Of a stretch of DNA of 64,000 nucleotides, positions 19,398-44,290 are shown piece by piece. Where the stretch lies: contig NC_060114.1 of NCBI RefSeq assembly GCF_021155765.1, positions 14,145,501 to 14,209,500 of the forward strand, written 5' to 3'. Numbering within the stretch: the stretch's first letter is position 1; every line of letters starts with the position of its first letter. Origin of the DNA: Diprion similis. Taxonomy: Eukaryota; Arthropoda; Insecta; Hymenoptera; Diprionidae. The position numbers and the translations under genes were made by a program. Below the pieces are notes generated by a model. It had not been told where the DNA came from. It saw only the letters and a program-made list of their open reading frames with translations, and ran no database searches.

Positions 19398-20234
19398 GGA
19401 ACCTGCAAGTACGTTGTATCGTGGCGCTGAACAGTCTTTGCATGTTGAGCAGAACTTCTACACTTTGTCCTGTAAGAGGTTCGATGAATCGAAGTGGAAC
19501 TGACGTACAATAAAAATAAATTGCGAATTGCAAGTAGATTATTAAATTTAGAACATTGTAGGATTGACTACTGCGGAGATGCAAAGAAATTTTTCGATTT
19601 TCGGCTGAAACCATCGAAAAGTTGATGACAGCGACCGATTTCTTCCGTGGAATAAGATTGTTCTTGCGTCTGAATATTTTAATTCTACTACATTTGAGAA
19701 TCGCGGAAATTGAGGAACAAAGAAAGACTTTTTTGTGACTTTTGAAGGAGTTGACCATCTTTTTGTCAAGCGAAAAACTTTCCGTTTCAGAGTCAATTCA
19801 CAACGATTTGACCCTCTATAAACTAATTGTACCTCAAGGGTTACGAAAAACGTCTGTATACACTACGTAGTAGAAGCAACATCTGAAGGAAAGTGATAAA
19901 AAATAGTGATATTCGGTTATTTTTTTTTTTATTGAAGGTGACATAAAATAGTGACAATACAATATTATATACATCGTATCGTGCAGCGGCGCTCACCATC
20001 TGTACGCAGGCCGCAACTTAGGCTAATAACTATCTCATATGATGTTACTCATATTTTGCTTCGTGTAATGTTTATTGCACTGTTTTTATATACTAGTTAG
20101 ACACTTCTTGAGGTGAAAGACACTGACACTAGAGAACTTGTACTACAATTGAAGAATAATAAAGATGCTGAAATTGAAACTTTACACCTATGAGTTTGTG
20201 ATTTTTCTGACCCACCTTTTAAAAAACCCAATGA
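19398..20234. other. cubilin 3' UTR and gene-free spacer up to the satellite
   Basis: A canonical AATAAA lies at 19509-19514, about 112 bases after the cubilin stop, and probably directs polyadenylation. The rest of the stretch is AT-rich, with a T run near 19920-19931, and no gene or RNA is recognised. Two overlapping minus-strand open frames (19387-19796) have no family features. Confidence 0.6.
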
Positions 20235-20770
20235 AGATTTGACGTTTTCCGGTTGTAAGTTTTGATCCGTTGCTCGCAGTGACTCTGGATTACGCTTAAT
20301 CGACTCCTCGCGCAGAATTACGTCAATATAGTGCATAAAAAAGTAGCTACTAGCAATTGTCGGAGTCGATAAAATTTTCACCTGAAATCCAAAGGGGTTA
20401 GCCTGAGTTTTTTCCTCATTTTCGGAGCCGAAAATTTTTCGTTTCGAAATCGATTTGTATGACCCTTTCCGGAGTAAATCGACCCCCAGGAACCCAAAAA
20501 ACACATGAAAAAGAGCGTCGGACCAACAGCAGAGAAATGAGGACGAAAATAATCAGTTTTTCGCCTGTAACTTCTCAGGCGTTAATCGCAGCGTATTGGG
20601 ACTGCGCCCAATCAATTTCTCTCGCAAAATTACGTCGGAATGGTGCCTTAAAGAATTTATTGCAGCCCTTTTCAAAGTCGTCGAAATTTTCGCCAAAAAT
20701 CCAAAGGGGTTAGCCTTAGTTTTTTCCTCATTTTCGGAGCCTTAAATTTTTCGTCTCGGAATCGATTTGT

Positions 20771-23700
20771 ATGACCCTTTCCGGAGTAAATGGACCCCCA
20801 GGAACTCAAAAAACACATGAAAAAGAGCGTAGGACCAACAGCAGAGAAATGGGGACGAAAATATTCAGTTTTTCGCCTGTAACTTCTCAGGCGTTAATCG
20901 CAGCGTATTGGGACTGCGCCCAATCGATTTCTCTCGCAAAATTACGTCGGAATAGTGCCTTGAAGAATTTATTGCAGCCCTTTTCAAAGTCGTCGAAATT
21001 TTCGCCAAAAATCCAAAGGGGTTAGCCTTAGTTTTTTCCCCATTTTCGGAGCCGAAAATTTTTCGTCTCGAAATCGGTTGGTATGACCCTTTCCAGAGTA
21101 AATCGACCCCCAGGAACTCAAAAAACACATGATAACGAGCGTAGGACCAACAGCAGAGAAATGAGGACGAAAATAATCAGTTTTTCGCCTGTAACTTCTC
21201 AGGCGTTAATCGCAGCGTATTGGGACTGCGCCCAATCGATTTCTCTCGCAAAATTACGTCGGAATAGTGCCTTAAAGAATTTATTGCAGCCCTTTTCAAA
21301 GTCGTCGAAATTTTCGCCAAAAATCCAAAGGGGTTAGCCTTAGTTTTTTCCTCATTTTCGGAGCCGAAAATTTTTCGTCTCGGAATCGATTTGTATGACC
21401 CTTTCCGGAGTAAATCGACCCCCAGGAACTCAAAAAACACATGAAAAAGAGCGTCGGACCAACAGCAGAGAAATGAGGACGAAAATAATCAGTTTTTTGC
21501 CTGTAACTTCTCAGGCGTTAATCGCAGCGTATTGGGACTGCGCCCAATCGATTTCTCTCGCAAAATTACGCCGGAATAGTGCCTTAAAGAATTTATTGCA
21601 GCCCTTTCCAAAGTCGTCGAAATTTTCGGCAAAAATCCAAAGAGGTTAGCCTTAGTTTTTTCCTCATTTTCGGAGCCGAAAATTTTTCGTCTCGGAATCG
21701 ATTTGTATGACCCTTTCCGGAGTAAATCGACCCCCAGGAACTCGAAAAACACATGAAAAAGAGCGTCGGACCAACAGCAGAGAAATGAGGACGAAAATAA
21801 TCAGTTTTTTGCCTGTAACTTCTCAGGCGTTAATCGCAGCGTATTGGGACTGCGCCCAATCGATTTCTCTCGCAAAATTACGCCGGAATAGTGCCTTAAA
21901 GAATTTATTGCAGCCCTTTCCAAAGTCGTCGAAATTTTCGGCAAAAATCCAAAGAGGTTAGCCTTAGTTTTTTCCTCATTTTCGGAGCCGAAAATTTTTC
22001 GTCTCGGAATCGATTTGTATGACCCTTTCCGGAGTAAATCGACCCCCAGGAACTCGAAAAACACATGAAAAAGAGCGTCGGACCAACAGCAGAGAAATGG
22101 GGACGAAAATAATCAGTTTTTCGCCTGTAACTTCTCAGGCGTTAATCGCAGCGTATTGGGACTGCGCCCAATCGATTTCTCTCGCAAAATTACGTCGGAA
22201 TAGTGCCTGAAAGAATTTATTGCAGCCCTTTTCAAAGTCGTCGAAATTTTCGCCAAAAATCCAAAGGGGTTAGCCTTAGTTTTTTCCCCATTTTCGGAGC
22301 CGAAAATTTTTCGTCTCGGAATCGATTGGTATGACCCTTTCCGGAGTAAATCGACCCCCAGGAACTCAAAAAACACATGAAAAACAGCGTCGGACCAACA
22401 GCAGAGAAATGAGGACGAGAATAATCAGTTTTTTGCCTGTAACTTCTCAGGCGTTAATCGCAGCGTATTGGGACTGCGCCCATTCGATTGCTCTCGCAAA
22501 ATTACGTCGGAATAGTGCCTTAAAGAATTTATTGCAGCCCTTTTCAAAGTCGTCGAAATTTTCGCCAAAAATCCAAAGGGGTTAGCCTTAGTTTTTTCCC
22601 CATTTTCGGAGCCGAAAATTTTTCGTCTCGAAATCGATTGGTATGACCCTTTCCGGAGTAAATCGACCCCCAGGAACTCAAAAAACACATGAAAAAGAGC
22701 GTAGGACCAACAGCAGAGAAATGGGGACGAAAATAATCAGTTTTTCGCCTGTAACTTCTCAGGCGTTAATCGCAGCGTATTGGGACTGCGCCCAATCGAT
22801 TTCTCTCGCAAAATTACGTCGGAATAGTGCCTTAAAGAATTTATTGCAGCCCTTTTCAAAGTCGTCGAAATTTTCGCCAAAAATCCAAAGGGGTTAGCCT
22901 TAGTTTTTTCCCCATTTTCGGAGCCGAAAATTTTTCGTCTCGAAATCGATTGGTATGACCCTTTCCGGAGTAAATCGACCCCCAGGAACTCAAAAAACAC
23001 ATGAAAAAGAGCGTCGGACCAACAGCAGAGAAATGAGGACGAGAATAATCAGTTTTTTGCCCGTAACTTCTCAGGCGTTAATCGCAGCGTATTGGGACTG
23101 CGCCCAATCGATTTCTCTCGCAAAATTACGTCGGAATAGTGCCTCAAAGAATTTATTGCAGCCCTTTCTAAAGTTGTCGAAATTTTCGCTAAAAATCCAA
23201 AGGGGTTAGCCTTAGTTTTTTCCTCATTTTCGGAGCCGACAATTTTTCGTCTCGGAATCGATTTGTATGACCCTTTCCGGAGTAAATCGACCCCCAGAAA
23301 CTCAAAAAACACATGAAAAAGAGCGTCGGACCAACAGCAGAGAAATGAGGACGAGAATAATCAGTTTTTTGCCTGTAACTTCTCAGGCGTTAATCGCAGC
23401 GTATTGGGACTGCGCCCAATCGATTTCTCTCGCAAAATTACTTCGGAATAGTGCCTGAAAGAATTTATTGCAGCCCTTTTCAAAGTCGTCGAAATTTTCG
23501 CCAAAAATCCAAAGGGGTTAGCCTTAGTTTTTTCCCCATTTTCGAAGCCGAAAATTTTTCGTCTCGGAATCGATTGTTATGACCCTTTCCGGAGTAAATC
23601 GACCCCCAGGAACTCAAAAAACACATGAAAAAGAGCGTCGGACCAACAGCAGAGAAATGAGGACGAGAATAATCAGTTTTTTGCCTGTAACTTCTCAGGC

Positions 23701-26700
23701 GTTAATCGCAGCGTATTGGGACTGCGCCCAATCGATTTCTCTCGCAAAATTACGTCGGAATAGTGCCTTAAAGAATTTATTGCAGCCCTTTCCAAAGTCG
23801 TCGAAATTTTCGCCAAAAATCCAAAGAGGTTAGCCTTAGTTTTTTCCTCATTTTCGGAGCCGAAAATTTTTCGTCTCGGAATCGATTTGTATGACCCTTT
23901 CCGGAGTAAATCGACCCCCAGGAACTCAAAAAACACATGAAAAAGAGCGTCGGACCAACAGCAGAGAAATGGGGACGAAAATAATCAGTTTTTCGCCTGT
24001 AACTTCTCAGGCGTTAATCGCAGCGTATTGGGACTGCGCCCAATCGATTTCTCTCGCAAAATTACGTCGGAATAGTGCCTCAAAGAATTTATTGCAGCAC
24101 TTTTCAAAGTCGTCGAAATTTTCGCCAAAAATCCAAAGGGGTTAGCCTTAGTTTTTTCCTCCTTTTCGGAGCCGACAAGTTTTCGTCTCGGAATCGATTT
24201 GTATGACCCTTTCCGGAGTAAATCGACCCCCAGGAACTCAAAAAACACATGAAAAAGAGCGTCGGACCAACAGCAGAGAAATGAGGACGAGAATAATCAG
24301 TTTTTTGCCTGTAACTTCTCAGGCGTTAATCGCAGCGTATTGGGACTGCGCCCAATCGATTTCTCTCGCAAAATTACGTCGGAATAGTGCCTTAAAGAAT
24401 TTATTGCAGCCCTTTTCAAAGTCGTCGAAATTTTCGCCAAAAATCCAAAGGGGTTAGCCTTAGTTTTTTCCCCATTTTCGGAGCCGAAAATTTTTCGTCT
24501 CGAAATCGATTGGTATGACCCTTTCCGGAGTAAATCGACCCCCAGGAACTCAAAAAACACATGAAAAAGAGCGTCGGACCAACAGCAGAGAAATGAGGAC
24601 GAGAATAATCAGTTTTTTGCCCGTAACTTCTCAGGCGTTAATCGCAGCGTATTGGGACTGCGCCCAATCGATTTCTCTCGCAAAATTACGTCGGAATAGT
24701 GCCTTAAAGAATTTATTGCAGCCCTTTCTAAAGTTGTCGAAATTTTCGCTGAAAATCCAAAGGGGTTAGCCTTAGTTTTTTCCTCATTTTCGGAGCCGAC
24801 AATTTTTCGTCTCGGAATCGATTTGTATGACCCTTTCCGGAGTAAATCGACCCCCAGGAACTCAAAAAACACATGAAAAAGAGCGTCGGACCAACAGCAG
24901 AGAAATGAGGACGAGAATAATCAGTTTTTTGCCCGTAACTTCTCAGGCGTTAATCGCAGCGTATTGGGACTGCGCCCAATCGATTTCTCTCGCAAAATTA
25001 CGTCGGAATAGTGCCTTAAAGAATTTATTGCAGCCCTTTCTAAAGTTGTCGAAATTTTCGCTGAAAATCCAAAGGGGTTAGCCTTAGTTTTTTCCTCATT
25101 TTCGGAGCCGACAATTTTTCGTCTCGGAATCGATTTGTATGACCCTTTCCGGAGTAAATCGACCCCCAGGAACTCAAAAAACACATGAAAAAGAGCGTCG
25201 GACCAACAGCAGAGAAATGAGGACGAGAATAATCAGTTTTTTGCCCGTAACTTCTCAGGCGTTAATCGCAGCGTATTGGGACTGCGCCCAATCGATTTCT
25301 CTCGCAAAATTACGTCGGAATAGTGCCTTAAAGAATTTATTGCAGCCCTTTTCAAAGTCGTCGAAATTTTCGCCAAAAATCCAAAGGGGTAAGCCTTAGT
25401 TTTTTCCCCATTTTCGGAGCCGAAAATTTTTCGTCTCGGAATCGATTGGTATGACCCTTTCCGGAGTAAATCGACCCCCAGGAACTCAAAAAACACATGA
25501 AAAAGAGCGTCGGACCAACAGCAGAGAAATGAGGACGAGAATAATCAGTTTTTTGCCTGTCACTTCTCAGGCGTTAATCGCAGCGTATTGGGACTGCGCC
25601 CAATCGATTTCTCTCGCAGAATTACGTCGGAATAGTGCCTTAAAGAATTTATTGCAGCCCTTTTCAAAGTCGTCGAAATTTTCGCCAAAAATCCAAAGGG
25701 GTTAGCCTTAGTTTTTTCCCCATTTTCGGAGCCGAAAATTTTTCGTCTCGAAATCGATTGGTATGACCCTTTTCGGAGTAAATCGACCCCCAGGAACTCA
25801 AAAAACACATGAAAAAGAGCGTAGGACCAACAGCAGAGAAATGGGGACGAAAATAATCAGTTTTTCGCCTGTAACTTCTCAGGCGTTAATCGCAGCGTAT
25901 TGGGACTGCGCCCAATCGATTTCTCTCGCAAAATTACGTCGGAATAGTGCCTTAAAGATTTTATTGCAGCCCTTTTCAAAGTCGTCAAAATTTTCGCCAA
26001 AAATCCAAAGGGGTTAGCCTTAGTTTTTTCCTCATTTTCGGAGCCGACAATTTTTCGTCTCGGAATCGATTTGTATGACCCTTTCCGGAGTAAATGGACC
26101 CCCAGGAACTCAAAAAACACATGAAAAAGAGCGTAGGACCAACAGCAGAGAAATGGGGACGAAAATATTCAGTTTTTCGCCTGTAACTTCTCAGGCGTTA
26201 ATCGCAGCGTATTGGGACTGCGCCCAATCGATTTCTCTCGCAAAATTACGTCGGAATAGTGCCTTGAAGAATTTATTGCAGCCCTTTTCAAAGTCGTCGA
26301 AATTTTCGCCAAAAATCCAAAGGGGTTAGCCTTAGTTTTTTCCCCATTTTCGGAGCCGAAAATTTTTCGTCTCGAAATCGGTTGGTATGACCCTTTCCAG
26401 AGTAAATCGACCCCCAGGAACTCAAAAAACACATGATAACGAGCGTAGGACCAACAGCAGAGAAATGAGGACGAAAATAATCAGTTTTTCGCCTGTAACT
26501 TCTCAGGCGTTAATCGCAGCGTATTGGGACTGCGCCCAATCGATTTCTCTCGCAAAATTACGTCGGAATAGTGCCTTAAAGAATTTATTGCAGCCCTTTT
26601 CAAAGTCGTCGAAATTTTCGCCAAAAATCCAAAGGGGTTAGCCTTAGTTTTTTCCTCATTTTCGGAGCCGAAAATTTTTCGTCTCGGAATCGATTTGTAT

Positions 26701-29700
26701 GACCCTTTCCGGAGTAAATCGACCCCCAGGAACTCAAAAAACACATGAAAAAGAGCGTAGGACCAACAGCAGAGAAATGGGGACGAAAATAATCAGTTTT
26801 TCGCCTGTAACTTCTCAGGCGTTAATCGCAGCGTATTGGGACTGCGCCCAATCGATTTCTCTCGCAGAATTACGTCGGAATAGTGCCTCAAAGAATTTAT
26901 TGCAGCTCTTTTCAAAGTCGTCGAAATTTTCGCCAAAAATCCAAAGGGGTTAGCCTTAGTTTTTTCCCCATTTTCGGAGCCGAAAATTTTTCGTCTCGAA
27001 ATCGATTGGTATGACCCTTTCCGGAGTAAATCGACCCCCAGGAACTCAAAAAACACATGAAAAAGAGCGTCGGACCAACAGCAGAGAAATGAGGACGAGA
27101 ATAATCAGTTTTTTGCCCGTAACTTCTCAGGCGTTAATCGCAGCGTATTGGGACTGCGCCCAATCGATTTCTCTCGCAAAATTACGTCGGAATAGTGCCT
27201 CAAAGAATTTATTGCAGCCCTTTCTAAAGTTGTCGAAATTTTCGCTAAAAATCCAAAGGGGTTAGCCTTAGTTTTTTCCTCATTTTCGGAGCCGACAATT
27301 TTTCGTCTCGGAATCGATTTGTATGACCCTTTCCGGAGTAAATCGACCCCCAGGAACTCAAAAAACACATGAAAAAGAGCGTCGGACCAACAGCAGAGAA
27401 ATGAGGACGAGAATAATCAGTTTTTTGCCTGTAACTTCTCAGGCGTTAATCGCAGCGTATTGGGACTGCGCCCAATCGATTTCTCTCGCAAAATTACGTC
27501 GGAATAGTGCCTTGAAGAATTTATTGCAGCCCTTTTCAAAGTCGTCGAAATTTTCGCCAAAAATCCAAAGGGGTTAGCCTTAGTTTTTTCCCCATTTTCG
27601 GAGCCGAAAATTTTTCGTCTCGAAATCGGTTGGTATGACCCTTTCCGGAGTAAATCGACCCCCAGGAACTCAAAAAACACATGATAACGAGCGTAGGACC
27701 AACAGCAGAGAAATGAGGACGAAAATAATCAGTTTTTCGCCTGTAACTTCTCAGGCGTTAATCGCAGCGTATTGGGACTGCGCCCAATCGATTTCTCTCG
27801 CAAAATTACGTCGGAATAGTGCCTTAAAGAATTTATTGCAGCACTTTTCAAAGTCGTCGAAATTTTCGCCAAAAATCCAAAGGGGTTAGCCTTAGTTTTT
27901 TCCTCATTTTCGGAGCCGACAATTTTTCGTCTCGGAATCGATTTGTATGACCCTTTCCGGAGTAAATCGACCCCCAGGAACTCAAAAAACACATGAAAAA
28001 GAGCGTCGGACCAACAGCAGAGAAATGAGGACGAGAATAATCAGTTTTTTGCCTGTAACTTCTCAGGCGTTAATCGCAGCGTATTGGGACTGCGCCCAAT
28101 CGATTTCTCTCGCAAAATTACGTCGGAATAGTGCCTTCAAGAATTTATTGCAGCCCTTTCCAAAGTCGTCGAAATTTTCGCCAAAAATCCAAAGAGGTTA
28201 GCCTTAGTTTTTTCCTCATTTTCGGAGCCGAAAATTTTTCGTCTCGGAATCGATTTGTATGACCCTTTCCGGAGTAAATCGACCCCCAGGAACTCAAAAA
28301 ACACATGAAAAAGAGCGTCGGACCAACAGCAGAGAAATGGGGACGAAAATAATCAGTTTTTCGCCTGTAACTTCTCAGGCGTTAATCGCAGCGTATTGGG
28401 ACTGCGCCCAATCGATTTCTCTCGCAAAATTACGTCGGAATAGTGCCTCAAAGAATTTATTGCAGCACTTTTCAAAGTCGTCGAAATTTTCGCCAAAAAT
28501 CCAAAGGGGTTAGCCTTAGTTTTTTCCTCCTTTTCGGAGCCGACAAGTTTTCGTCTCGGAATCGATTTGTATGACCCTTTCCGGAGTAAATCGACCCCCA
28601 GGAACTCAAAAAACACATGAAAAAGAGCGTCGGACCAACAGCAGAGAAATGAGGACGAGAATAATCAGTTTTTTGCCTGTAACTTCTCAGGCGTTAATCG
28701 CAGCGTATTGGGACTGCGCCCAATCGATTTCTCTCGCAAAATTACGTCGGAATAGTGCCTTAAAGAATTTATTGCAGCCCTTTTCAAAGTCGTCGAAATT
28801 TTCGCCAAAAATCCAAAGGGGTTAGCCTTAGTTTTTTCCCCATTTTCGGAGCCGAAAATTTTTCGTCTCGAAATCGATTGGTATGACCCTTTCCGGAGTA
28901 AATCGACCCCCAGGAACTCAAAAAACACATGAAAAAGAGCGTCGGACCAACAGCAGAGAAATGAGGACGAGAATAATCAGTTTTTTGCCCGTAACTTCTC
29001 AGGCGTTAATCGCAGCGTATTGGGACTGCGCCCAATCGATTTCTCTCGCAAAATTACGTCGGAATAGTGCCTTAAAGAATTTATTGCAGCCCTTTCTAAA
29101 GTTGTCGAAATTTTCGCTGAAAATCCAAAGGGGTTAGCCTTAGTTTTTTCCTCATTTTCGGAGCCGACAATTTTTCGTCTCGGAATCGATTTGTATGACC
29201 CTTTCCGGAGTAAATCGACCCCCAGGAACTCAAAAAACACATGAAAAAGAGCGTCGGACCAACAGCAGAGAAATGAGGACGAGAATAATCAGTTTTTTGC
29301 CCGTAACTTCTCAGGCGTTAATCGCAGCGTATTGGGACTGCGCCCAATCGATTTCTCTCGCAAAATTACGTCGGAATAGTGCCTTAAAGAATTTATTGCA
29401 GCCCTTTTCAAAGTCGTCGAAATTTTCGCCAAAAATCCAAAGGGGTAAGCCTTAGTTTTTTCCCCATTTTCGGAGCCGAAAATTTTTCGTCTCGGAATCG
29501 ATTGGTATGACCCTTTCCGGAGTAAATCGACCCCCAGGAACTCAAAAAACACATGAAAAAGAGCGTCGGACCAACAGCAGAGAAATGAGGACGAGAATAA
29601 TCAGTTTTTTGCCTGTCACTTCTCAGGCGTTAATCGCAGCGTATTGGGACTGCGCCCAATCGATTTCTCTCGCAGAATTACGTCGGAATAGTGCCTTAAA

Positions 29701-30385
29701 GAATTTATTGCAGCCCTTTTCAAAGTCGTCGAAATTTTCGCCAAAAATCCAAAGGGGTTAGCCTTAGTTTTTTCCCCATTTTCGGAGCCGAAAATTTTTC
29801 GTCTCGAAATCGATTGGTATGACCCTTTTCGGAGTAAATCGACCCCCAGGAACTCAAAAAACACATGAAAAAGAGCGTAGGACCAACAGCAGAGAAATGG
29901 GGACGAAAATAATCAGTTTTTCGCCTGTAACTTCTCAGGCGTTAATCGCAGCGTATTGGGACTGCGCCCAATCGATTTCTCTCGCAAAATTACGTCGGAA
30001 TAGTGCCTTAAAGATTTTATTGCAGCCCTTTTCAAAGTCGTCAAAATTTTCGCCAAAAATCCAAAGGGGTTAGCCTTAGTTTTTTCCTCATTTTCGGAGC
30101 CGACAATTTTTCGTCTCGGAATCGATTTGTATGACCCTTTCCGGAGTAAATCGACCCCCAGGAACTCAAAAAACACATGAAAAAGAGCGTCGGACCAACA
30201 GCAGAGAAATCAGGACGAGAATAATCAGTTTTTTGCCTGTAACTTCTCAGGCGTTAATCGCAGCGTATTGGGACTGCGCCCAATCGATTTCTCTCGCAAA
30301 ATTACGTCGGAATAGTGCCTTAAAGAATTTATTGCAGCCCTTTTCAAAGTCGTCGAAATTTTCGCCAAAAATCCAAAGGGGTTAG
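20771..30385 (+). repeat. higher-order duplications in the left half of the satellite
   Basis: Diagnostic variants recur at fixed offsets. The unusual monomers at 20771 and 21083 reappear at 26075 and 26387 (offset 5304 = 17 monomers). The run 24827-26017 reappears from 28883 (offset 4056 = 13 monomers; monomers 25139, 25451 and 25763 match 29195, 29507 and 29819). The run 23891-24769 reappears from 28259 (offset 4368 = 14 monomers). The change from 14 to 13 is explained by one extra monomer, since 24515 and 24827 are near-identical neighbours. This shows block duplication by unequal exchange. Confidence 0.8.
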
Positions 30386-33300
30386 CCTTAGTTTTTTCCC
30401 CATTTTCGGAGCCGAAAATTTTTCGTCTCGGAATCGATTGGTATGACCCTTTCCGGAGTAAATCGACCCCCAGGAACTCAAAAAACACATGAAAAACAGC
30501 GTCGGACCAACAGCAGAGAAATGAGGACGAGAATAATCAGTTTTTTGCCTGTAACTTCTCAGGCGTTAATCGCAGCGTATTGGGACTGCGCCCATTCGAT
30601 TTCTCTCGCAAAATTACGTCGGAATAGTGCCCTCAAGAATTTAATGCAGCCCTTTTCAAAGTCGTCGAAATTTTCGCCAAAAATCCAAAGGGGTTAGCCT
30701 TAGTTTTTTCCCCATTTTCGGAGCCGAAAATTTTTCGTCTCGAAATCGATTGGTATGACCCTTTCCGGAGTAAATCGACCCCCAGGAACTCAAAAAACAC
30801 ATGAAAAAGAGCGTAGGACCAACAGCAGAGAAATGGGGACGAAAATAATCAGTTTTTCGCCTGTAACTTCTCAGGCGTTAATCGCAGCGTATTGGGACTG
30901 CGCCCAATCGATTTCTCTCGCAAAATTACGTCGGAATAGTGCCTTAAAGAATTTATTGCAGCCCTTTTCAAAGTCGTCGAAATTTTCGCCAAAAATCCAA
31001 AGGGGTTAGCCTTAGTTTTTTCCTCATTTTCGGAGCCGAAAATTTTTCGTCTCGGAATCGATTTGTATGACCCTTTCCGGAGAAAATCGACCCCCAGGAA
31101 CTCAAAAAACACATGAAAAAGAGCGTGGGACCAACAGCAGAGAAATGAGGACGAGAATAATCAGTTTTTTGCCTGTAACTTCTCAGGCGTTAATCGCAGC
31201 GTATTGGGACTGCGCCCAATCGATTTCTCTCGCAAAATTACGTCGGAATAGTGCCTTAAAGAATTTATTGCAGCCCTTTTCAAAGTCCCCGAAATTTTCG
31301 CCAAAAATCCAAAGGGGTTAGCCTTAGTTTTTTCCCCATTTTCGGAGCCGAAAATTTTTCGTCTCGAAATCGATTGGTATGACCCTTTCCGGAGTAAATC
31401 GACCCCCAGGAACTCAAAAAACACATGAAAAAGAGCGTAGGACCAACAGCAGAGAAATGGGGACGAAAATAATCAGTTTTTCGCCTGTAACTTCTCAGGC
31501 GTTAATCGCAGCGTATTGGGACTGCGCCCAATCGATTTCTCTCGCAGAATTACGTCGGAATAGTGCCTTAAAGAATTTATTGCAGCCCTTTTCAAAGTCG
31601 TCGAAATTTTCGCCAAAAATCCAAAGGGGTTAGCCTTAGTTTTTTCCCCATTTTCGGAGCCGAAAATTTTTCGTCTCGAAATCGATTGGTATGACCCTTT
31701 TCGGAGTAAATCGACCCCCAGGAACTCAAAAAACACATGAAAAAGAGCGTAGGACCAACAGCAGAGAAATGGGGACGAAAATAATCAGTTTTTCGCCTGT
31801 AACTTCTCAGGCGTTAATCGCAGCGTATTGGGACTGCGCCCAATCGATTTCTCCCGCAAAATTACGTCGGAATAGTGCCTTAAAGATTTTATTGCAGCCC
31901 TTTTCAAAGTCGTCAAAATTTTCGCCAAAAATCCAAAGGGGTTAGCCTTAGTTTTTTCCTCATTTTCGGAGCCGACAATTTTTCGTCTCGGAATCGATTT
32001 GTATGACCCTTTCCGGAGTAAATCGACCCCAGGAACTCAAAAAACACATGAGAAAGAGCGTCGGACCAACAGCAGAGAAATGAGGACGGAAATAATCAGT
32101 TTTTTGCCTGTAACTTCTCAGGCGTTAATCGCAGCGTATTGGCACTGCGCCCAATCGATTTCTTTAGCAAAATTACGTCGGAATAGTGCCTTAAAGAATT
32201 TATTGCAGCCCTTTTCAAAGTCGTCGAAATTTTCGCCAAAAATCCAAAGGGGTTAGCCTTAGTTTTTTCCCCATTTTCGGAGCCGAAAATTTTTCGTCTC
32301 GGAATCGATTTGTATGACCCTTTCCGGAGAAAATCGACCCCCAGGAACTCAAAAAACACATGAAAAAGAGCGTGGGACCAACAGCAGAGAAATGAGGACG
32401 AGAATAATCAGTTTTTTGCCTGTAACTTCTCAGGCGTTAATCGCAGCGTATTGGGACTGCGCCCAATCGATTTCTCTCGCAAAATTACGTCGGAATAGTG
32501 CCTTAAAGAATTTATTGCAGCCCTTTTCAAAGTCCCCGAAATTTTCGCCAAAAATCCAAAGGGGTTAGCCTTAGTTTTTTCCCCATTTTCGGAGCCGAAA
32601 ATTTTTCGTCTCGAAATCGATTGGTATGACCCTTTCCGGAGTAAATCGACCCCCAGGAACTCAAAAAACACATGAAAAAGAGCGTAGGACCAACAGCAGA
32701 GAAATGGGGACGAAAATAATCAGTTTTTCGCCTGTAACTTCTCAGGCGTTAATCGCAGCGTATTGGGACTGCGCCCAATCGATTTCTCTCGCAGAATTAC
32801 GTCGGAATAGTGCCTTAAAGAATTTATTGCAGCCCTTTTCAAAGTCGTCGAAATTTTCGCCAAAAATCCACAGGGGTTAGCCTTAGTTTTTTCCCCATTT
32901 TCGGAGCCGAAAATTTTTCGTCTCGAAATCGATTGGTATGACCCTTTCCGGAGTAAATCGACCCCCAGGAACTCAAAAAACACATGAAAAAGAGCGTAGG
33001 ACCAACAGCAGAGAAATGGGGACGAGAATAATCAGTTTTTTGCCTGTAACTTCTCAGGCGTTAATCGCAGCGTATTGGGACTGCGCCCAATCGATTTCTC
33101 TCGCAAAATTACGTCGGAATAGTGCCTTAAAGAATTTATTGCAGCCCTTTTCAAAGTCGTCGAAATTTTCGCCAAAAATCCAAAGGGGTTAGCCTTAGTT
33201 TTTTCCCCATTTTCGGAGCCGAAAATTTTTCGTCTCGGAATCGATTGGTATGACCCTTTCCGGAGTAAATCGACCCCAGGAACTCAAAAAACACATGAAA

Positions 33301-34796
33301 AAGAGCGTAGGACCAACAGCAGAGAAATGGGGACGAAAATAATCAGTTTTTCGCCTGTAACTTCTCAGGCGTTAATCGCAGCGTATTGGGACTGCGCCCA
33401 ATCGATTTCTCTCGCAAAATTACGTCGGAATAGTGCCTTACAGAATTTATTGCAGCCCTTTTCAAAGTCGTCGAAATTTTCGGCAAAAATCCAAAGAGGT
33501 TAGCCTTAGTTTTTTCCTCATTTTCAGAGCCGAAAATTTTTCGTCTCGGAATCGATTTGTATGACCCTTTCCGGAGTAAATCGACCCCCAGGAACTCGAA
33601 AAACACATGAAAAAGAGCGTCGGACCAACAGCAGAGAAATGAGGACGAAAATAATCAGTTTTTTGCCTGTAACTTCTCAGGCGTTAATCGCAGCGTATTG
33701 GGACTGCGCCCAATCGATTTCTCTCGCATAATTACGTCGGAATAGTGCCTTGAAGAATTTATTGCAGCCCTTTCCAAAGTCGTCGAAATTTTCGCCAAAA
33801 ATCCAAAGAGGTTAGCCTTAGTTTTTTCCTCATTTTCGGAGCCGAAAATTTTTCGTTTCGGAATCGATTTGTATGACCCTTTCCGGAGTAAATCGACCCC
33901 CAGGAACTCAAAAAACACATGAAAAAGAGCGTCGGACCAACAGCAGAGAAATGAGGACGAGAATAATCAGTTTTTTGCCTGTAACTTCTCAGGCGTTAAT
34001 CGCAGCGTATTGGCACTGCGCCCAATCGATTTCTCTCGCAAAATTACGTCGGAATAGTGCCTTAAAGAATTTATTGCAGCCCTTTTCAAAGTCGTCGAAA
34101 TTTTCGCCAAAAATCCAAAGGGGTTAGCCTTAGTTTTTTCCCCATTTTCGGAGCCGAAAATTTTTCGTCTCGGAATCGATTGGTATGACCCTTTCCGGAG
34201 TAAATCGACCCCCAGGAACTCAAAAAACACATGAAAAAGAGCGTCGGACCAACAGCAGAGAAATGGGGACGAAAATAATCAGTTTTTCGCCTGTAACTTC
34301 TCAGGCGTTGATCGCAGCGTATTGGGACTGCGCCCAATCGATTTCTCTCGCAAAATTACGTCGGAATAGTGCCTTAAAGAATTTATTGCAGCCCTTTTCA
34401 AAGTCGTCGAAATTTTCGCCAAAAATCCAAAGGGGTTAGCCTTAGTTTTTTCCTCATTTTCGGAGCCGAAAATTTTTCGTCTCGGAATCGATTGGTATGA
34501 CCCTTTCCGGAGTAAATCGACCCCCAGGAACTCAAAAAACACATGAAAAAGAGCGTAGGACCAACAGCAGAGAAATGGGGACGAAAATAATCAGTTTTTC
34601 GCCTGTAACTTCTCAGGCGTTGATCGCAGCGTATTGGGACTGCGCCCAATCGATTTCTCTCGCAAAATTACGTCGGAATAGTGCCTTAAAGAATGTATTG
34701 CAGCCCTTTTCAAAGTCGTCGAAATTTTCGCTCAAAATCCAAAGGGGTTAGCCTTAGTTTTTTCCTCATTTTCGGAGCCGAAAATTTTTCGTCTCG

Positions 34797-37700
34797 ATTT
34801 GTATGACCCTTTCCGGAGTAAATCGACCCCCAGGAACCCAAAAAACACATGAAAAAGAGCGTCGGACCAACAGCAGAGAAATGAGGACGAAAATAATCAG
34901 TTTTTTGCCTGTAACTTCTCAGGCGTTAATCGCAGCGTATTGGCACTGCGCCCAATCGATTTCTCTCGCAAAATTACGTCGGAATAGTGCCTCAAAGAAT
35001 TTATTGCAGCACTTTTCAAAGTAGTCGAAATTTTCGCCAAAAATCCAAAGGGGTTAGCCTCAGTTTTTTCCTCATTTTCGGAGCCGAAAATTTTACGTCT
35101 CGGAATCGATTTGTATGACCCTTTCCGGAGTAAATCGACCCCCAGGAACTCAAAAAACACATGAAAAAGAGCGTAGGACCAACAGCAGAGAAATGAGGAC
35201 GAAAATAATCAGTTTTTCGCCTGTAACTTCTCAGCCGTTAATCGCAGCGTATTGGCACTGCGCCCAATCGATTTCTCTCGCAAAATTACGTCGGAATAGT
35301 GCCTTCAAGAATTTATTGCAGCCCTTTTCAAAGTCGTCGAAATTTCGCCAAAAATCCAAAGGGGTTAGCCTTAGTTTTTTCCTCATTTTCGGAGCCGAAA
35401 ATTTTTCGTCTCGGAATCGATTCGTATGTCCCTTTCCGGAGTAAATCGACCCCCAGGAACTCAAAAAACACATGAAAAAGTGCGTAGGACCAACAGCAGA
35501 GAAATGAGGACGAAAATAATCAGTTTTTCGCCTGTAACTTCTTAGGCGTTAATCGCAGCGTATTGGGACTGCGCCCAATCGATTTCTCCCGCAAAATTAC
35601 GTCGGAATAGTGCCTTCAAGAATTTATTGCAGGATTTTTCAAAGTCGTCGAAATTTTCGCTAAAAATCCAAAGGGGTTAGCCTTAGTTTTTTCCTCGTTT
35701 TCGGACTCGAAAATTTTTCGTCGAGGAATCGATTTGTATGACCCTTTCCGGAGTAAATCGACCCCCAGGAACCCAAAAAACACATGAAAAAGAGCGTCGG
35801 ACCATCAGCAGAGAAATGAGGACGAAAATAATCAGTTTTTCGCCTGTAACTTCTCAGGCGTTAATCGCAGCGTATTGGGACTGCGCCCAATCGATTTCTC
35901 TCGCAAAATTACGTCGGAATAGTGCCTTAAAGAATTTATTGCAGCCCTTTCTAAAATCGTTGAAATTTTCGCCAAAACTCCAAAGGGGTTAGCCTTAGTT
36001 TTTTCCTCATTTTCGGAGCCGAAAATTTCTCGTTTTGGAATCGATTTGTACGACCCTTTCCGGAGTAAATCGACCCCCAGAAACCCAAAAAACACATGAA
36101 AAAGAGCGTCGGACCATCAGCAGAGAAATGAGGACGAAAATAATCAGTTTTTCGCCTGTAACTTCTCAGGCGTTAATCGCAGCGTATTGGGACTGCGCCC
36201 AATCGATTTCTCTCGCAAAATTACGTCGGAATAGTGCCTTAAAGAATTTATTGCAGCCCTTTTCAAAGTCGTCGAAATTTTCGCCAAAAATCCAAAGGGG
36301 TTAGCCTTAGTTTTTTCCTCATTTTCGGAGCCGAAAATTTTTCGTCTCGGAATCGATTTGTATGACCCTTTCCGGAGTAAATCGACCCCCAGGAACTCAA
36401 AAAACACATGAAAAAGAGCGTCGGACCAACAGCAGAGAAATGAGGACGAGAATAATCAGTTTTTTGCCTGTAACTTCTCAGGCGTTAATCGCAGCGTATT
36501 GGGACTGCGCCCAATCGATTTCTCTCGCAAAATTACGTCGGAATAGTGCCTTAAAGAATTTATTGCAGCCCTTTTCAAAGTCGTCGAAATTTTCGCCAAA
36601 AATCCAAAGGGGTTAGCCTTAGTTTTTTCCTCATTTTCGGAGCCGAAAATTTTTCGTCTCGGAATCGATTGGTATGACCCTTTCCGGAGTAAATCGACCC
36701 CCAGGAACTCAAAAAACACATGAAAAAGAGCGTAGGACCAACAGCAGAGAAATGGGGACGAAAATAATCAGTTTTTCGCCTGTAACTTCTCAGGCGTTGA
36801 TCGCAGCGTATTGGGACTGCGCCCAATCGATTTCTCTCGCAAAATTACGTCGGAATAGTGCCTTAAAGAATTTATTGCAGCCCTTTTCAAAGTCGTCGAA
36901 ATTTTCGCCAAAAATCCAAAGGGGTTAGCCTTAGTTTTTTCCTCATTTTCGGAGCCGAAAATTTTTCGTCTCGGAATCGATTGGTATGACCCTTTCCGGA
37001 GTAAATCGACCCCCAGGAACTCAAAAAACACATGAAAAAGAGCGTAGGACCAACAGCAGAGAAATGGGGACGAAAATAATCAGTTTTTCGCCTGTAACTT
37101 CTCAGGCGTTGATCGCAGCGTATTGGGACTGCGCCCAATCGATTTCTCTCGCAAAATTACGTCGGAATAGTGCCTTAAAGAATTTATTGCAGCCCTTTTC
37201 AAAGTCGTCGAAATTTTCGCTCAAAATCCAAAGGGGTTAGCCTTAGTTTTTTCCTCATTTTCGGAGCCGAAAATTTTTCGTCTCGATTTGTATGACCCTT
37301 TCCGGAGTAAATCGACCCCCAGGAACCCAAAAAACACATGAAAAAGAGCGTCGGACCAACAGCAGAGAAATGAGGACGAAAATAATCAGTTTTTTGCCTG
37401 TAACTTCTCAGGCGTTAATCGCAGCGTATTGGCACTGCGCCCAATCGATTTCTCTCGCAAAATTACGTCGGAATAGTGCCTCAAAGAATTTATTGCAGCA
37501 CTTTTCAAAGTAGTCGAAATTTTCGCCAAAAATCCAAAGGGGTTAGCCTCAGTTTTTTCCTCATTTTCGGAGCCGAAAATTTTACGTCTCGGAATCGATT
37601 TGTATGACCCTTTCCGGAGTAAATCGACCCCCAGGAACTCAAAAAACACATGAAAAAGAGCGTAGGACCAACAGCAGAGAAATGAGGACGAAAATAATCA

Positions 37701-40700
37701 GTTTTTCGCCTGTAACTTCTCAGCCGTTAATCGCAGCGTATTGGCACTGCGCCCAATCGATTTCTCTCGCAAAATTACGTCGGAATAGTGCCTTCAAGAA
37801 TTTATTGCAGCCCTTTTCAAAGTCGTCGAAATTTCGCCAAAAATCCAAAGGGGTTAGCCTTAGTTTTTTCCTCATTTTCGGAGCCGAAAATTTTTCGTCT
37901 CGGAATCGATTCGTATGTCCCTTTCCGGAGTAAATCGACCCCCAGGAACTCAAAAAACACATGAAAAAGTGCGTAGGACCAACAGCAGAGAAATGAGGAC
38001 GAAAATAATCAGTTTTTCGCCTGTAACTTCTTAGGCGTTAATCGCAGCGTATTGGGACTGCGCCCAATCGATTTCTCCCGCAAAATTACGTCGGAATAGT
38101 GCCTTCAAGAATTTATTGCAGGATTTTTCAAAGTCGTCGAAATTTTCGCTAAAAATCCAAAGGGGTTAGCCTTAGTTTTTTCCTCGTTTTCGGACTCGAA
38201 AATTTTTCGTCGAGGAATCGATTTGTATGACCCTTTCCGGAGTAAATCGACCCCCAGGAACCCAAAAAACACATGAAAAAGAGCGTCGGACCATCAGCAG
38301 AGAAATGAGGACGAAAATAATCAGTTTTTCGCCTGTAACTTCTCAGGCGTTAATCGCAGCGTATTGGGACTGCGCCCAATCGATTTCTCTCGCAAAATTA
38401 CGTCGGAATAGTGCCTTAAAGAATTTATTGCAGCCCTTTCTAAAATCGTTGAAATTTTCGCCAAAACTCCAAAGGGGTTAGCCTTAGTTTTTTCCTCATT
38501 TTCGGAGCCGAAAATTTCTCGTTTTGGAATCGATTTGTACGACCCTTTCCGGAGTAAATCGACCCCCAGAAACCCAAAAAACACATGAAAAAGAGCGTCG
38601 GACCATCAGCAGAGAAATGAGGACGAAAATAATCAGTTTTTCGCCTGTAACTTCTCAGGCGTTAATCGCAGCGTATTGGGACTGCGCCCAATCGATTTCT
38701 CTCGCAAAATTACGTCGGAATAGTGCCTTAAAGAATTTATTGCAGCCCTTTTCAAAGTCGTCGAAATTTTCGCCAAAAATCCAAAGGGGTTAGCCTTAGT
38801 TTTTTCCTCATTTTCGGAGCCGAAAATTTCTCGTTTCGGAATCGATTTGTACGACCCTTTCCGGAGTAAATCGACCCCCAGAAACCCAAAAAACACATGA
38901 AAAAGAGCGTCGGACCAACAGCAGAGAAATGAGGACGAAAATAATCAGTTTTTCGCCTGTAACTTCTCAGGCGTTAATCGCAGCGTATTGGGACTGCGCC
39001 CAATCGATTTCTCTCGCAAAATTACGTCGGAATAGTGCCTTAAAGAATTTATTGCAGCCCTTTTCAAAGTCGTCGAAATTTTCGCCAAAAATCCAAAGGG
39101 GTTAGCCTTAGTTTTTTCCTCATTTTCGGAGCCGAAAATTTTTCGTCTCGGAATCGATTTGTATGACCCTTTCCGGAGTAAATCGACCCCCAGGAACTCA
39201 AAAAACACATGAAAAAGAGCGTCGGACCAACAGCAGAGAAATGAGGACGAGAATAATCAGTTTTTTGCCTGTAACTTCTCAGGCGTTAATCGCAGCGTAT
39301 TGGGACTGCGCCCAATCGATTTCTCTCGCAAAATTACGTCGGAATAGTGCCTTAAAGAATTTATTGCAGCCCTTTTCAAAGTCGTCGAAATTTTCGCCAA
39401 AAATCCAAAGGGGTTAGCCTTAGTTTTTTCCTCATTTTCGGAGCCGAAAATTTTTCGTCTCGGAATCGATTGGTATGACCCTTTCCGGAGTAAATCGACC
39501 CCCAGGAACTCAAAAAACACATGAAAAAGAGCGTAGGACCAACAGCAGAGAAATGGGGACGAAAATAATCAGTTTTTCGCCTGTAACTTCTCAGGCGTTG
39601 ATCGCAGCGTATTGGGACTGCGCCCAATCGATTTCTCTCGCAAAATTACGTCGGAATAGTGCCTTAAAGAATTTATTGCAGCCCTTTTCAAAGTCGTCGA
39701 AATTTTCGCCAAAAATCCAAAGGGGTTAGCCTTAGTTTTTTCCTCATTTTCGGAGCCGAAAATTTTTCGTCTCGGAATCGATTGGTATGACCCTTTCCGG
39801 AGTAAATCGACCCCCAGGAACTCAAAAAACACATGAAAAAGAGCGTAGGACCAACAGCAGAGAAATGGGGACGAAAATAATCAGTTTTTCGCCTGTAACT
39901 TCTCAGGCGTTGATCGCAGCGTATTGGGACTGCGCCCAATCGATTTCTCTCGCAAAATTACGTCGGAATAGTGCCTTAAAGAATTTATTGCAGCCCTTTT
40001 CAAAGTCGTCGAAATTTTCGCTCAAAATCCAAAGGGGTTAGCCTTAGTTTTTTCCTCATTTTCGGAGCCGAAAATTTTTCGTCTCGATTTGTATGACCCT
40101 TTCCGGAGTAAATCGACCCCCAGGAACCCAAAAAACACATGAAAAAGAGCGTCGGACCAACAGCAGAGAAATGAGGACGAAAATAATCAGTTTTTTGCCT
40201 GTAACTTCTCAGGCGTTAATCGCAGCGTATTGGCACTGCGCCCAATCGATTTCTCTCGCAAAATTACGTCGGAATAGTGCCTCAAAGAATTTATTGCAGC
40301 ACTTTTCAAAGTAGTCGAAATTTTCGCCAAAAATCCAAAGGGGTTAGCCTCAGTTTTTTCCTCATTTTCGGAGCCGAAAATTTTACGTCTCGGAATCGAT
40401 TTGTATGACCCTTTCCGGAGTAAATCGACCCCCAGGAACTCAAAAAACACATGAAAAAGAGCGTAGGACCAACAGCAGAGAAATGAGGACGAAAATAATC
40501 AGTTCTTCGCCTGTAACTTCTCAGCCGTTAATCGCAGCGTATTGGCACTGCGCCCAATCGATTTCTCTCGCAAAATTACGTCGGAATAGTGCCTTCAAGA
40601 ATTTATTGCAGCCCTTTTCAAAGTCGTCGAAATTTCGCCAAAAATCCAAAGGGGTTAGCCTTAGTTTTTTCCTCATTTTCGGAGCCGAAAATTTTTCGTC

Positions 40701-41030
40701 TTGGAATCGATTCGTATGTCCCTTTCCGGAGTAAATCGACCCCCAGGAACTCAAAAAACACATGAAAAAGTGCGTAGGACCAACAGCAGAGAAATGAGGA
40801 CGAAAATAATCAGTTTTTCGCCTGTAACTTCTTAGGCGTTAATCGCAGCGTATTGGGACTGCGCCCAATCGATTTCTCCCGCAAAATTACGTCGGAATAG
40901 TGCCTTCAAGAATTTATTGCAGGATTTTTCAAAGTCGTCGAAATTTTCGCTAAAAATCCAAAGGGGTTAGCCTTAGTTTTTTCCTCGTTTTCGGACTCGA
41001 AAATTTTTCGTCGAGGAATCGATTTGTATG
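34797..41030 (+). repeat. higher-order repeat of 8-9 monomers (2489 and 2801 bp) in the right half of the satellite
   Basis: The block starting with the 306-bp spacing variant at 34803 recurs at 37292 and 40093 (offsets 2489 and 2801 bp). Each block carries the same ordered set of variants: a 306-bp spacing, a monomer with cagccgtt, a monomer missing one base in gaaatttcgcc, a monomer with tcgaggaatcg, and so on. The second block has one additional monomer (near 38539-38851). The third block is cut off by the array edge near 41170. Confidence 0.85.
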
Positions 41031-41779
41031 ACCCTTTCCGGAGTAAATCGACCCCCAGGAACCCAAAAAACACATGAAAAAGAGCGTCGGACCATCAGCA
41101 GAGAAATGAGGACGAAAATAATCAGTTTTTCGCCTGTAACTTCTCAGGCGTTAATCGCAGCGTATTGGGACTGCGCCCAATCGATTTTTCTCGCAAAATT
41201 ACGTTGATATAGTGCACGAACAAATCGTTTCCAGCACTTCTTCAAATCGATGAAATCTTCACCAAAAATGCAAAGGGGTTAACTCTCTATTTTCGGTGAT
41301 TTTTGAATCCGAATCTTTCGTCCCAGAATCGATTCGCATGACCCTTTTTCAACCAATTGGACCCCCAGAAACTCAGAAAATTCAGCAAAAACAGCATAGG
41401 ACCAACAGCAGAGAAATTATGCTGGAGAGCAGAGCAGCAAGAGAATTAGATAGCAAAGCGTTCCGTCATTTGGCTGTCACTCTTGATCCGTAGCTTGCCG
41501 CATATTCGGACTGCGTTCAACTGATTCTCCTGGCAAACAAATGACGAGAAAGCGCATCAAAGAATTACTTCAAGCATTTTTCAAAGTTCGACAAATTCCG
41601 ACTAAAAAATTACAAAGAAGTTCAAGGTTTTCATGTATTTATTAATATTCCCATTGCATTCTTGGGAAACAGCTTACAACAGAAAATCAAAAGGGCTACA
41701 ATAATGTACAAGGAAAAATTTACACACGTTCATTCAAAGCTAAAAACTCAACTCTGACTAAAATTTAAACTAACGAGGG

Positions 41780-41900
41780 CAAACTGTTTTTGTGCGAAAT
41801 ATTTTTTGGCGCAGAATCAGCCGAAATGACTCTGTCCGGACGAATCGGTTTCCAAGGATTGCAGAAAACGCATTTGGAGCATCGTGGGACCAATACCTGA
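41780..41900 (+). repeat. isolated, strongly diverged satellite relic
   Basis: Short matches in the right order and spacing to the monomer are visible: cagaatcagccgaaatgac..ctgtccgga, then a cca-gga segment, then aaaacgcat, and then gggaccaa with gagaag. The similarity is well below that within the array, which suggests an old edge copy stranded outside the homogenised block. Confidence 0.5.
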
Positions 41901-43950
41901 GAAGACACAAATTTACTCGTGCATCATTTATTCTACTCCAGGTTACGTAAAACAGTAACAATGCAAATCTATACATCCCGTATACGGCACAGGAGCATTG
42001 TACCTGTACACAGATCGGAACCTGAACTGCACTTACATACTCCAAGAATAACTACCCTATGCAACATTGTTCACATCCTGCTTATTGCAATGTTTATCGC
42101 AGTTTTTATTTCTTATACGTACAGTATTCACACCTCTTATGCAATGATCATTCATTGTATTGCATTTTTTTTTTATCTTGAACTCCATTGCTATCGGAAA
42201 CATCATACTTATTGTACGAATCAGTATAATGTTATAATTATCATTGGTATGACATGTCATTATTAGTATTTTATATTAGTATAATATATTTTAATTGTAC
42301 TATTTGGAAACTTGTTAAGTAGCATACACTGATACCTGAACACTTGTGATAGAACTAAGATATATAAATTTTTTCATTCTGTGTCCTCAAAATTTGTAAA
42401 TGCTTATCCTAGCGATTCAAGCTTATACGCAAGCGTCTAGAGTCCCAAACCGACGTCGACACGGTTCGTCTAATAACCTGTGCAAAATCTTCACAAGCCT
42501 GTGTAGCCGAAGTCAATTTTCAACCCAACCAAAAACTTGCCAATCATTCTTCAACAGGCATCCCACACTTCAATGGGCCCTGTCAACATAACAAATAGTT
42601 TTATCCACGTATTCCAATCCAGCAAATCTGATCTACAGAATCCAATCACAAATTGTTATTCGTACCACATAAGTTACAATTTTTCTCAAGACCTTATGTA
42701 TTCAAAAATATTTAACACTTCTAATCCTACATAAATGGCTAGATTGAACGAATAATCGTGGATGATTCCACTGGATATTCGTGGATAATTGACCAATTTC
42801 AGACAATACAGAGCTTCCGTTACAAAACATAATCATTTTATACATACGGTAGAATGAAAATTACCTGCGGAACGGTTTCTCTTTGCCAAGAGAGAGCTGT
42901 AGTTTATCAATACGCGAGAAAGATGGGGTGAAAATCTGCACCAGACCAAAGGCTTCGTTTCGCGATGTTATTGCTGATATCAATACTTTCGATAACTCCT
43001 GCCAGCAGTGAACCGAAGCTTATGCTTTAACCAAATCCCCGAAACTGTTCCGCGCAGAATTAGCTGACAGACACTGTTCACGAACCCCCTTTTTTCACGA
43101 CCATTAATCCCAAACCATCAATCGATTGTACATAATCATTACATAAATCGGTTTTACCACTACATCAAGATGTCATCGACAACGTCACTCGTTCAGACTC
43201 ATCCTTAATTTCTAATCGGCAAATAAATATTGATAGTATAAATCTTATTCACGAATAATAGTTTTCCTGGATGGTGAAAGAAACGGCAACGTGTGGTTAA
43301 GTCTTCAGGCTTCATGTTCAAAATAGCGAAGAAGTCGATGCGCAGGGTGACTTAAGTTCGACTGTGCTCGAAAGTTTTCAAGTTGAGTGTAATGGAGCCT
43401 ATGTACTAGCTCCCTCGATTGGGGGTTCGCGCTCTGCACGAGTGTTACTTAGCAACAAAAGACACTCCAATCCTTGCGCCTTTTAAAGTTTTATTCCTTG
43501 TTTTAGCCTCGTCTCGCACACCTATACCCGTTTACGCATATCGGCAACGACTTGAGCATATATACCTAAGCGTAATGGAAGAAATGAGGAAAATGTGTGG
43601 ATGAAAAACCTTTTGATTATCGGGTCAATACGGTGTATTGAGTCTCATCGTCTATTCTATGCGAGCATCGAAATTAAGCCACTACACGCGGATTTATAAT
43701 ACTTCCAGGGTTAAAAAATCATTGTCAGTACAATCTATGTATCGAAAATTGTACAAATTACTCTAGTAATAACCGAATGCTTAAGAAAAGTAGTTTTACC
43801 GTCGTTTCACTTTGGGTATTTAAAGTGTGCGAAATTCACGTGCAGCCTTCATCGCTGTATTTGGAAACTGGATAACGCTGTATAGGAGAGTTGAACGTGT
43901 ACGAAGCACGAGAAAGAAGTTTCAATAACACCGCACCGAAGGAGTATTCA
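41901..43950. other. gene-free stretch
   Basis: The stretch is AT-rich unique-looking sequence. Open frames of up to 115 codons (41919-42266) have no recognisable domain, biased codon use or splice context. No RNA gene was recognised. Confidence 0.5.
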
Positions 43951-44290
43951 CTTGTTGAAATCGCAAACCACTATAGAAAGCAGTCACTTTTAAATCGCTG
44001 GAAATCGTATGAAATCACGTAAAATTGCATGAAATGGCACATGTGTTAACTTGTTATAATCGCAAACCACTTTAAAACGCAGTGACTCTAAAATCGTTTT
44101 ACATCACTTTAGATTTATTTGAAATCTCTTTAAATCGTATGAGATCCCTTGAAATTACATGGAATGGTACGTGTATTAACTTGTTGAACATTGCCTAAAC
44201 GACTTTGGAAAGCAGTCACTTTAAAATCAATTGAAATCAGTTAAAACCCGTTGAATTTGCTTGAAATCGCATGAAATCATTTCAATCGCT
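43951..44290. repeat. degenerate tandem repeat (three copies, about 100-130 bp) with short internal repeats
   Basis: Three copies open at 43951, 44050 and 44180 with cttgtt(g/a), followed by a (a)tcgcaaacca-like segment and a gcagtcact(t)taaaatc segment. Inside the copies a shorter unit of the type ttgaaatcgca/tgaaat recurs many times. It looks like an old minisatellite with a nested short period. Confidence 0.65.

Follow-up and report, generated by a model that had tools for sequence, protein, structure and literature searches.

A 312-bp satellite of Diprion similis, probably born within a non-autonomous DNA transposon

We analysed a stretch of 64,000 nucleotides of the sawfly Diprion similis (RefSeq assembly GCF_021155765.1, contig NC_060114.1, positions 14,145,501 to 14,209,500), hereafter the window, in which a long array of a 312-bp tandem repeat lies beside a cubilin-like gene. 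The sequence adjoining the array on both of its sides is a dispersed repeat of about 540 bp, which we call X. As argued below, the array is very probably a satellite which was born, and in part still lives, in a non-autonomous DNA transposon of the cut-and-paste type whose terminal inverted repeats measure about 200 bp. The survey covered the whole assembly (269.0 Mb in 60 contigs). Labels C1-C14 denote contigs, the window being C10:14145501-14209500, and L-numbers denote genomic loci that were fetched for comparison.

Tandem Repeats Finder (TRF) detected a single array in the window, at 20372-41417, with 67.5 copies of period 312, 96% matches and 0% indels. An anchor scan placed 68 copies in register, and the 67 spacings between them were exactly 312 bp in 59 cases, 311 bp in five and 306 bp in three. 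The mean pairwise difference between monomers was 3.6% (first and last three copies excluded), and the 60 copies that were cut to 312 bp (the final one by construction) include 16 identical pairs. An earlier note on this DNA had described about 67 phased and highly similar copies, and both the copy number and the similarity were borne out. The ends which it gave, 20235 and 41635, are near the limits of recognisable homology, with decayed pieces reaching over 19558-20388 and 41787-42367. The array also contains two recent block duplications (Table 1); when the order of the window monomers was shuffled 500 times, the longest run obtained was 4, as compared to the seven and eight monomers of these blocks.

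A conserved 30-base stretch of the monomer, allowing for up to three mismatches, occurred at 43,486 places of the assembly (21,003 + 22,483; control 0), a figure which leaves the true number of monomers uncertain, since the loci on which the recall of this stretch, chosen for its breadth, was determined (0.91 as the mean of 68 loci holding 474 full monomers) had themselves been picked up by similarity. Multiplied by 312 bp, this corresponds to about 13.6 Mb, or 5.0% of the assembly. A monomer 36-mer with the same tolerance gave 3,515 places (1,419 + 2,096; control 0) and sees only a part of the family, as it matches 67 of the 68 window monomers but not a single monomer of several other arrays that were fetched, such as L054 and L055 (0 of 31 in each). 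Pieces of the family were present on contigs C1-C14. Long homogeneous head-to-tail arrays and many genomic copies, as expected of satellite DNA, were both observed, and the family can be estimated to form dispersed arrays, several hundred of them if they are of the window's size. The suspicion that it represents a major satellite of the species was thus correct, and the reservation that the array might exist only here did not hold, the family being present at many other loci. On the other hand, the proposed choice between a pericentromeric satellite and a euchromatic island misses its nature, i.e. many dispersed arrays carried in a transposon-like frame. Instead of one pericentromeric block per chromosome, X units and arrays occupy many positions along the contigs, although a pericentromeric share is possible. 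A 25-base piece taken from the conserved stretch had no exact counterpart in one scan each of a viral and a prokaryote collection. At four loci (L017, L019, L028 and L065), the monomers belong to another subfamily, B, which is about 25-32% different from the others and is spaced at 314 bp in L065 and L017.

At the loci examined, X interrupts the monomer at one point (about 163|168) and in one orientation. A 25-mer of X occurred at 184 places (83 + 101; control 0). The X consensus leaves out L024 and L033 (misaligned) as well as L034 and L032 (duplicates), and the hidden Markov model (HMM) of X leaves out L027 too. The array at C2:19.42-19.45 Mb, which was picked for its monomers, likewise bears X on each side. 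Altogether, seven array edges were reached without X or inverted-repeat bait, and five of them carry X or the inverted repeat (two in the window, two at C2:19.42 Mb and one at C8:19.90 Mb); the remaining two (L038, L043), with less than 0.6 kb outside recognised monomers, showed neither. Short forms of X, similar to that on the 5' side of the window array, were found at C2:19.42 Mb (L051, L052) and C10:21.976 Mb (L077). At C10:19558981-19583795, eleven X units are spaced by 2165, 2479 or 2793 bp (steps of 314), which suggests a higher-order repeat including X.

The outer flanks of X loci yielded a 5' and a 3' module that mirror one another, as inverted copies, at their outer ends. These ends form the terminal inverted repeats, which begin GGCTGGATTTTCACG; from 23 aligned ends, of which about 12 extend to the terminus, the inverted repeat was found to start with GGCTGGATTTTCACGGGCGTC. 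The terminal 34-mer, with up to three mismatches, was found at 12 places (control 0), several of them at the ends of independently placed arrays, and the terminus together with its flank could be read at 29 places. Directly before 10 of these 29 ends stands TTA or TAA (1.0 expected, p 2.6e-8); T occupies position -3 in 18 ends and A position -1 in 20. A TWA target site marks PIF/Harbinger transposons. Judging by this 3-bp site, seen at 10/29 ends and as an exact pair in one of six two-ended copies, the frame would be PIF/Harbinger-like. Terminal inverted repeats in dispersed copies, the mark of miniature inverted-repeat transposable elements (MITEs), are a property of the family and not of the window copy. 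Helitrons are not known to possess inverted repeats or target-site duplication, and Helitron- or Helentron-borne repeats do not fit the inverted repeats and TWA target sites found here. A 191-bp tandem repeat (94% matches) lies in or beside the 3' module at two loci (L026:1931-3212 and L013:1-865, at C6:17.11 and 21.50 Mb), and the frame may therefore host more than one satellite.

In the basic element, a single 312-bp unit is followed by the 3' module, and the two lie between the inverted repeats. Elements lacking the unit coexist in the genome with others that have one unit or an array, and all share common ends, as expected of a MITE-born satellite (Table 1); one or both ends were truncated or unseen in L070, L073, L074 and L075, and the 3' module of L076 is interrupted. 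Frame and unit are joined at constant unit positions, about 203 on the left and about 209 on the right. An imperfect 8-bp direct repeat of consensus GCGTATTC stands on either side of the unit in one-unit copies; L074 alone has it exact at both ends, and in L070 and L076 each end departs from it by one or two changes. Almost all of L072, which lacks the unit, folds as a single hairpin (-129 vs -81 +/- 6 kcal/mol for 20 shuffles, z -8).

A model can be proposed in which the 8-bp repeats acted as microhomology, so that replication slippage or unequal exchange would have duplicated the unit. The elements would have been dispersed along the chromosomes by a transposase supplied in trans, and their arrays would have been enlarged in place by unequal exchange; copies of blocks of seven to eight units are visible in the window. 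Furthermore, array content might have been swapped between loci by conversion or by excised circles. One branch of the family, as its sequence shows, has acquired the 540-bp insert X at a single unit position. The reverse order of events, namely that an older satellite monomer was first captured by the transposon and then carried around, appears rather unlikely to us. It agrees with the three no-unit copies, in which the inverted repeat is directly followed by the 3' module, but these are equally well explained as deletions between direct repeats, and among the loci fetched, to which the search was limited, no unframed ancestral source came to light.

Arrays and frames have not evolved together. 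Across 17 loci with both an array and X, the mean difference was 18.7% for array consensuses and 31.8% for X, where each consensus outside the window comes from 2-8 monomers near an edge, which in some cases differ from one another by up to 25%. Array distance was smaller than X distance in 127/136 pairs, and the two distances were uncorrelated (r = -0.17). All nine contrary pairs were between subfamilies A and B, so that exchange is seen within a subfamily only. A paired test was then confined to nine loci of subfamily A and 163 shared columns. Here, single edge monomers differed by 34.5% and array consensuses by 13.3%, and the array difference was below the edge difference in 36/36 pairs. 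Of the 16 edge pieces collected for it, those left out were both edges of the window, L013 and L081, for which there is no array consensus, and L017, L019 and L028 of subfamily B. The window's array consensus differs by 1.6% from the one at C10:9.72 Mb (L033) and by 5.1% from the one at C10:11.49 Mb (L042), and yet the X of the window is 32% different from the X of L042. As loci resemble each other much more in their arrays, within one subfamily, than in their frames and edge units, we infer from these sequences that array content was probably exchanged between loci after the frames were in place. Tentatively, and without calling it probable, we suggest that old frames might be docking sites for a satellite of about 5% of the assembly: the frames would have been immobile for long and decaying neutrally, while arrays of the same subfamily would have been refreshed from each other, by conversion or re-integrated circles, in concert across chromosomes. 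If true, the frame would serve as an internal clock of each locus by which homogenisation between loci could be measured.

Exchange of array content independently of frames could also be taken as the sign of an ordinary self-spreading satellite, multiplied for example by excised circles, which inverted-repeat elements and X invaded by chance; the window copy, being without inverted repeats, is in line with this as well. However, independent insertions would give random junctions and orientations, and what is observed argues against them: the junctions of the monomer with the inverted repeat and with the 3' module fall at constant positions (about 203 and 209) across loci, and X, at the loci examined, always sits at one place and points the same way. 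There are also one-unit elements whose unit is bordered by direct repeats. We therefore regard such a satellite as improbable. The low divergence of subfamily A consensuses (13%), as compared to about 32% for X, might alternatively reflect a functional array, such as a centromere or boundary element, whose monomer sequence is kept by selection. Constraint on the monomer does not account for it, since edge copies from the same columns and loci diverge as freely as X (34.5%), i.e. the sequence as such is unconstrained; moreover, arrays at many points of the sampled contigs are ill-suited to a single centromere per chromosome, and a functional array is very improbable. An assembly artefact, or a collapsed or expanded local repeat, is hardly credible given the array-specific variants (17/17 zero-mismatch places of the 36-mer are in the window array), the distinct neighbouring sequences and the presence of the family at many other loci.

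Several observations weigh against a transposon-born satellite. As for target sites, the single exact TWA pair among the six two-ended copies is at C8:25.57 Mb; the copy at C3:5.53 Mb has TAA/TGA, and those at C4:26.79 Mb, L076, L072 and C10:21.98 Mb are without a clean pair. As for the internal unit, the 8-bp repeat was exact at 4/8 left and 2/7 right junctions read. The 40-kb case on C3 rests at its right end on the terminal 27 bases only, and three short places were read within it. Most loci were fetched by bait from X, the two modules (T5, T3) or the terminus, by which framed arrays are over-represented. The comparison of arrays with X has its own weak points, namely the nine contrary pairs and the heterogeneous consensuses mentioned above.

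Nor was a transposase found close by. L082 (C4:21671500-21674900, the 3' part of a two-ended copy), the one framed copy searched, showed no transposase; four of its open reading frames (ORFs) have 80-100 amino acids and none exceeds 100. In the genome, 93 matches to DDE_Tnp_4 were detected, and even the nearest one is 0.9 Mb away from the closest of the 29 listed ends. Listed X copies were weakly depleted within 250 kb (1/80 vs 6.2 expected, p 0.02) and 500 kb (3/80 vs 9.4 expected, p 0.02) of a match and not depleted within 1 Mb (12/80 vs 14.0 expected, p 0.66). This test used 80 listed X places of the 184, on 8 contigs which hold 59 of the 93 matches; ten further listed places of the C10:19.56 Mb cluster and places on contigs of unknown length were excluded. 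Blocks of the Harbinger-type domain DDE_Tnp_4 at C2:0.4-3.3, C3:18.1-18.9, C4:6.1-9.8 and C10:0.2-3.1 Mb had no listed X unit, the statistics being weak.

The window copy itself is also incomplete. Profile HMMs found neither the inverted repeat nor the 3' module in the window flanks (best nhmmer E 12 and 2.1), and its membership in the family rests on X units and monomers. As X and monomer are present on both sides and the search for inverted repeats was empty, the window copy is read as an old, decayed or truncated member, which has lost its inverted repeats and retained X-bearing edge units on both sides. A 121-amino-acid ORF at 41901-42266, within the 3' X, is probably due to chance; X copies vary by insertions and deletions between loci.

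Table 1. Features of the window and related loci of the 312-bp family (positions without a contig or locus label refer to the window)
Feature	Position or locus	Strand	Description	Detected by
Outer monomer pieces, 5' side	19558..19885	+	decayed, weak (17-18 bits each)	profile HMM
5' X insert	19910..20245	+	short subtype without X positions about 204-384	profile HMM
Partial monomer	20224..20388	+	monomer positions 148-312, linking X to the array	profile HMM
Homogeneous satellite array	20389..41607	+	68 head-to-tail 312-bp monomers, last copies decayed	TRF, anchor scan, profile HMM
Recent block duplication, 8 monomers	within 33803..40957	+	33803-36291 copied at 36292-38780, 0.24% different	
Recent block duplication, 7 monomers	within 33803..40957	+	35980-38156 copied at 38781-40957, 0.18% different	
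Partial monomer, 3' side	41787..41904	+	decayed, monomer positions 32-149	profile HMM
3' X insert	41909..42367	+	positions 3-457 of 542	profile HMM
No-unit elements	L072, L073, L075		inverted repeat, 3' module, inverted repeat	
One-unit elements	L070, L074, L076		unit from about 203 to 308, then 4 to 209	
Units carrying X	L013, L014, L081			
Framed array, about 9.3 kb	C10:21.976-21.985 Mb		inverted repeats at both ends, 314-bp-spaced monomers between	
Framed array, 12.9 kb	C8:25570217-25583085		each end with inverted repeat and monomers, further monomers in the middle where sampled, flanked by TAA on either side	
Possible framed array, 40 kb	C3:5529935-5570160		opposed termini, monomers at three sampled places, TAA/TGA	
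Arrays framed at one end, the other decayed or not found	C3:0.905-0.929 Mb; C8:20.220-20.239 Mb			

The gene next to the array encodes EGF and CUB domains (Pfam; 2471-2935, 9056-9622 and 15236-15682), which supports the cubilin-like identity given to it in the earlier note, and the position of the array beside this gene looks incidental. A housekeeping cluster, also proposed there, was not confirmed as such: among four ORFs tested, one has a VWA domain (55779-56156) and three are without a Pfam match. Rfam and tRNA scans of the window detected no catalogued RNA, tRNA or tRNA-like gene. Degenerate direct repeats of 36-75 bp, 67-81% alike, are present at 43924-44271, where the monomer HMM is silent.

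The origin of satellites and the likeness of their arrays across chromosomes are long-standing questions. What look like successive stages apparently stand side by side in one genome: elements with no unit, with one unit, with X units, framed arrays and relics such as the window copy. Single-copy edge units provide a neutral control for the adjoining array, by which concerted evolution between loci becomes directly measurable.

Several known systems resemble the 312-bp family by their descriptions. Tetris / TIR-220 of Drosophila virilis is a non-autonomous inverted-repeat (foldback) element with internal repeats amplified to up to 66 copies (PMC4079207). Its tandem repeats have likewise grown inside the element, giving copies with few or many of them. 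Its 220-bp repeats, however, are located within the inverted repeats, whereas the unit described here lies between them; the amplification of Tetris is in beta-heterochromatin, with 610 repeats found in the assembly, in contrast to scattered arrays and 43,486 monomer places; and here the array content is decoupled from the frame. The second case is miDNA4 of Xenopus tropicalis, a MITE with one monomer or a variable array. According to two reviews (PMC12628747, PMC9659126), short direct repeats at the monomer ends are proposed to drive its expansion, and arrays lose their inverted repeats later, both of which recall the features reported above. Unlike the frame with TWA target sites, miDNA4 is a Tc1/mariner MITE and capture of a pre-existing repeat is proposed for it, while the family in D. 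similis has X as a second insert and framed arrays that measure about 9-13 kb or more. MITE-linked tandem repeats are further described, in the same two reviews, for Xstir of Xenopus and for the MITE satellites of Messor ants. The word Harbinger is absent from the main text of both. Satellite-like arrays reported to be borne by Helentrons in Crassostrea gigas (PMC7492417) share with the 312-bp family a mobile frame that scatters many arrays genome-wide.

Literature searches for a non-autonomous Harbinger satellite with internal tandem repeats and for satellite DNA monomers of sawflies gave no match, whereas two broader searches on satellite DNA and Harbinger elements, one of them within Hymenoptera, gave three and two papers; we make no wider claim that the present system is unpublished. 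The 312-bp system is a satellite of the MITE/foldback-born kind, already known from Tetris and miDNA4. It is set apart from the described cases by its TWA sites, its scale of about 5% of the assembly, its scattered framed arrays, an insert X confined to a single point and the measurable uncoupling of arrays from their frames.

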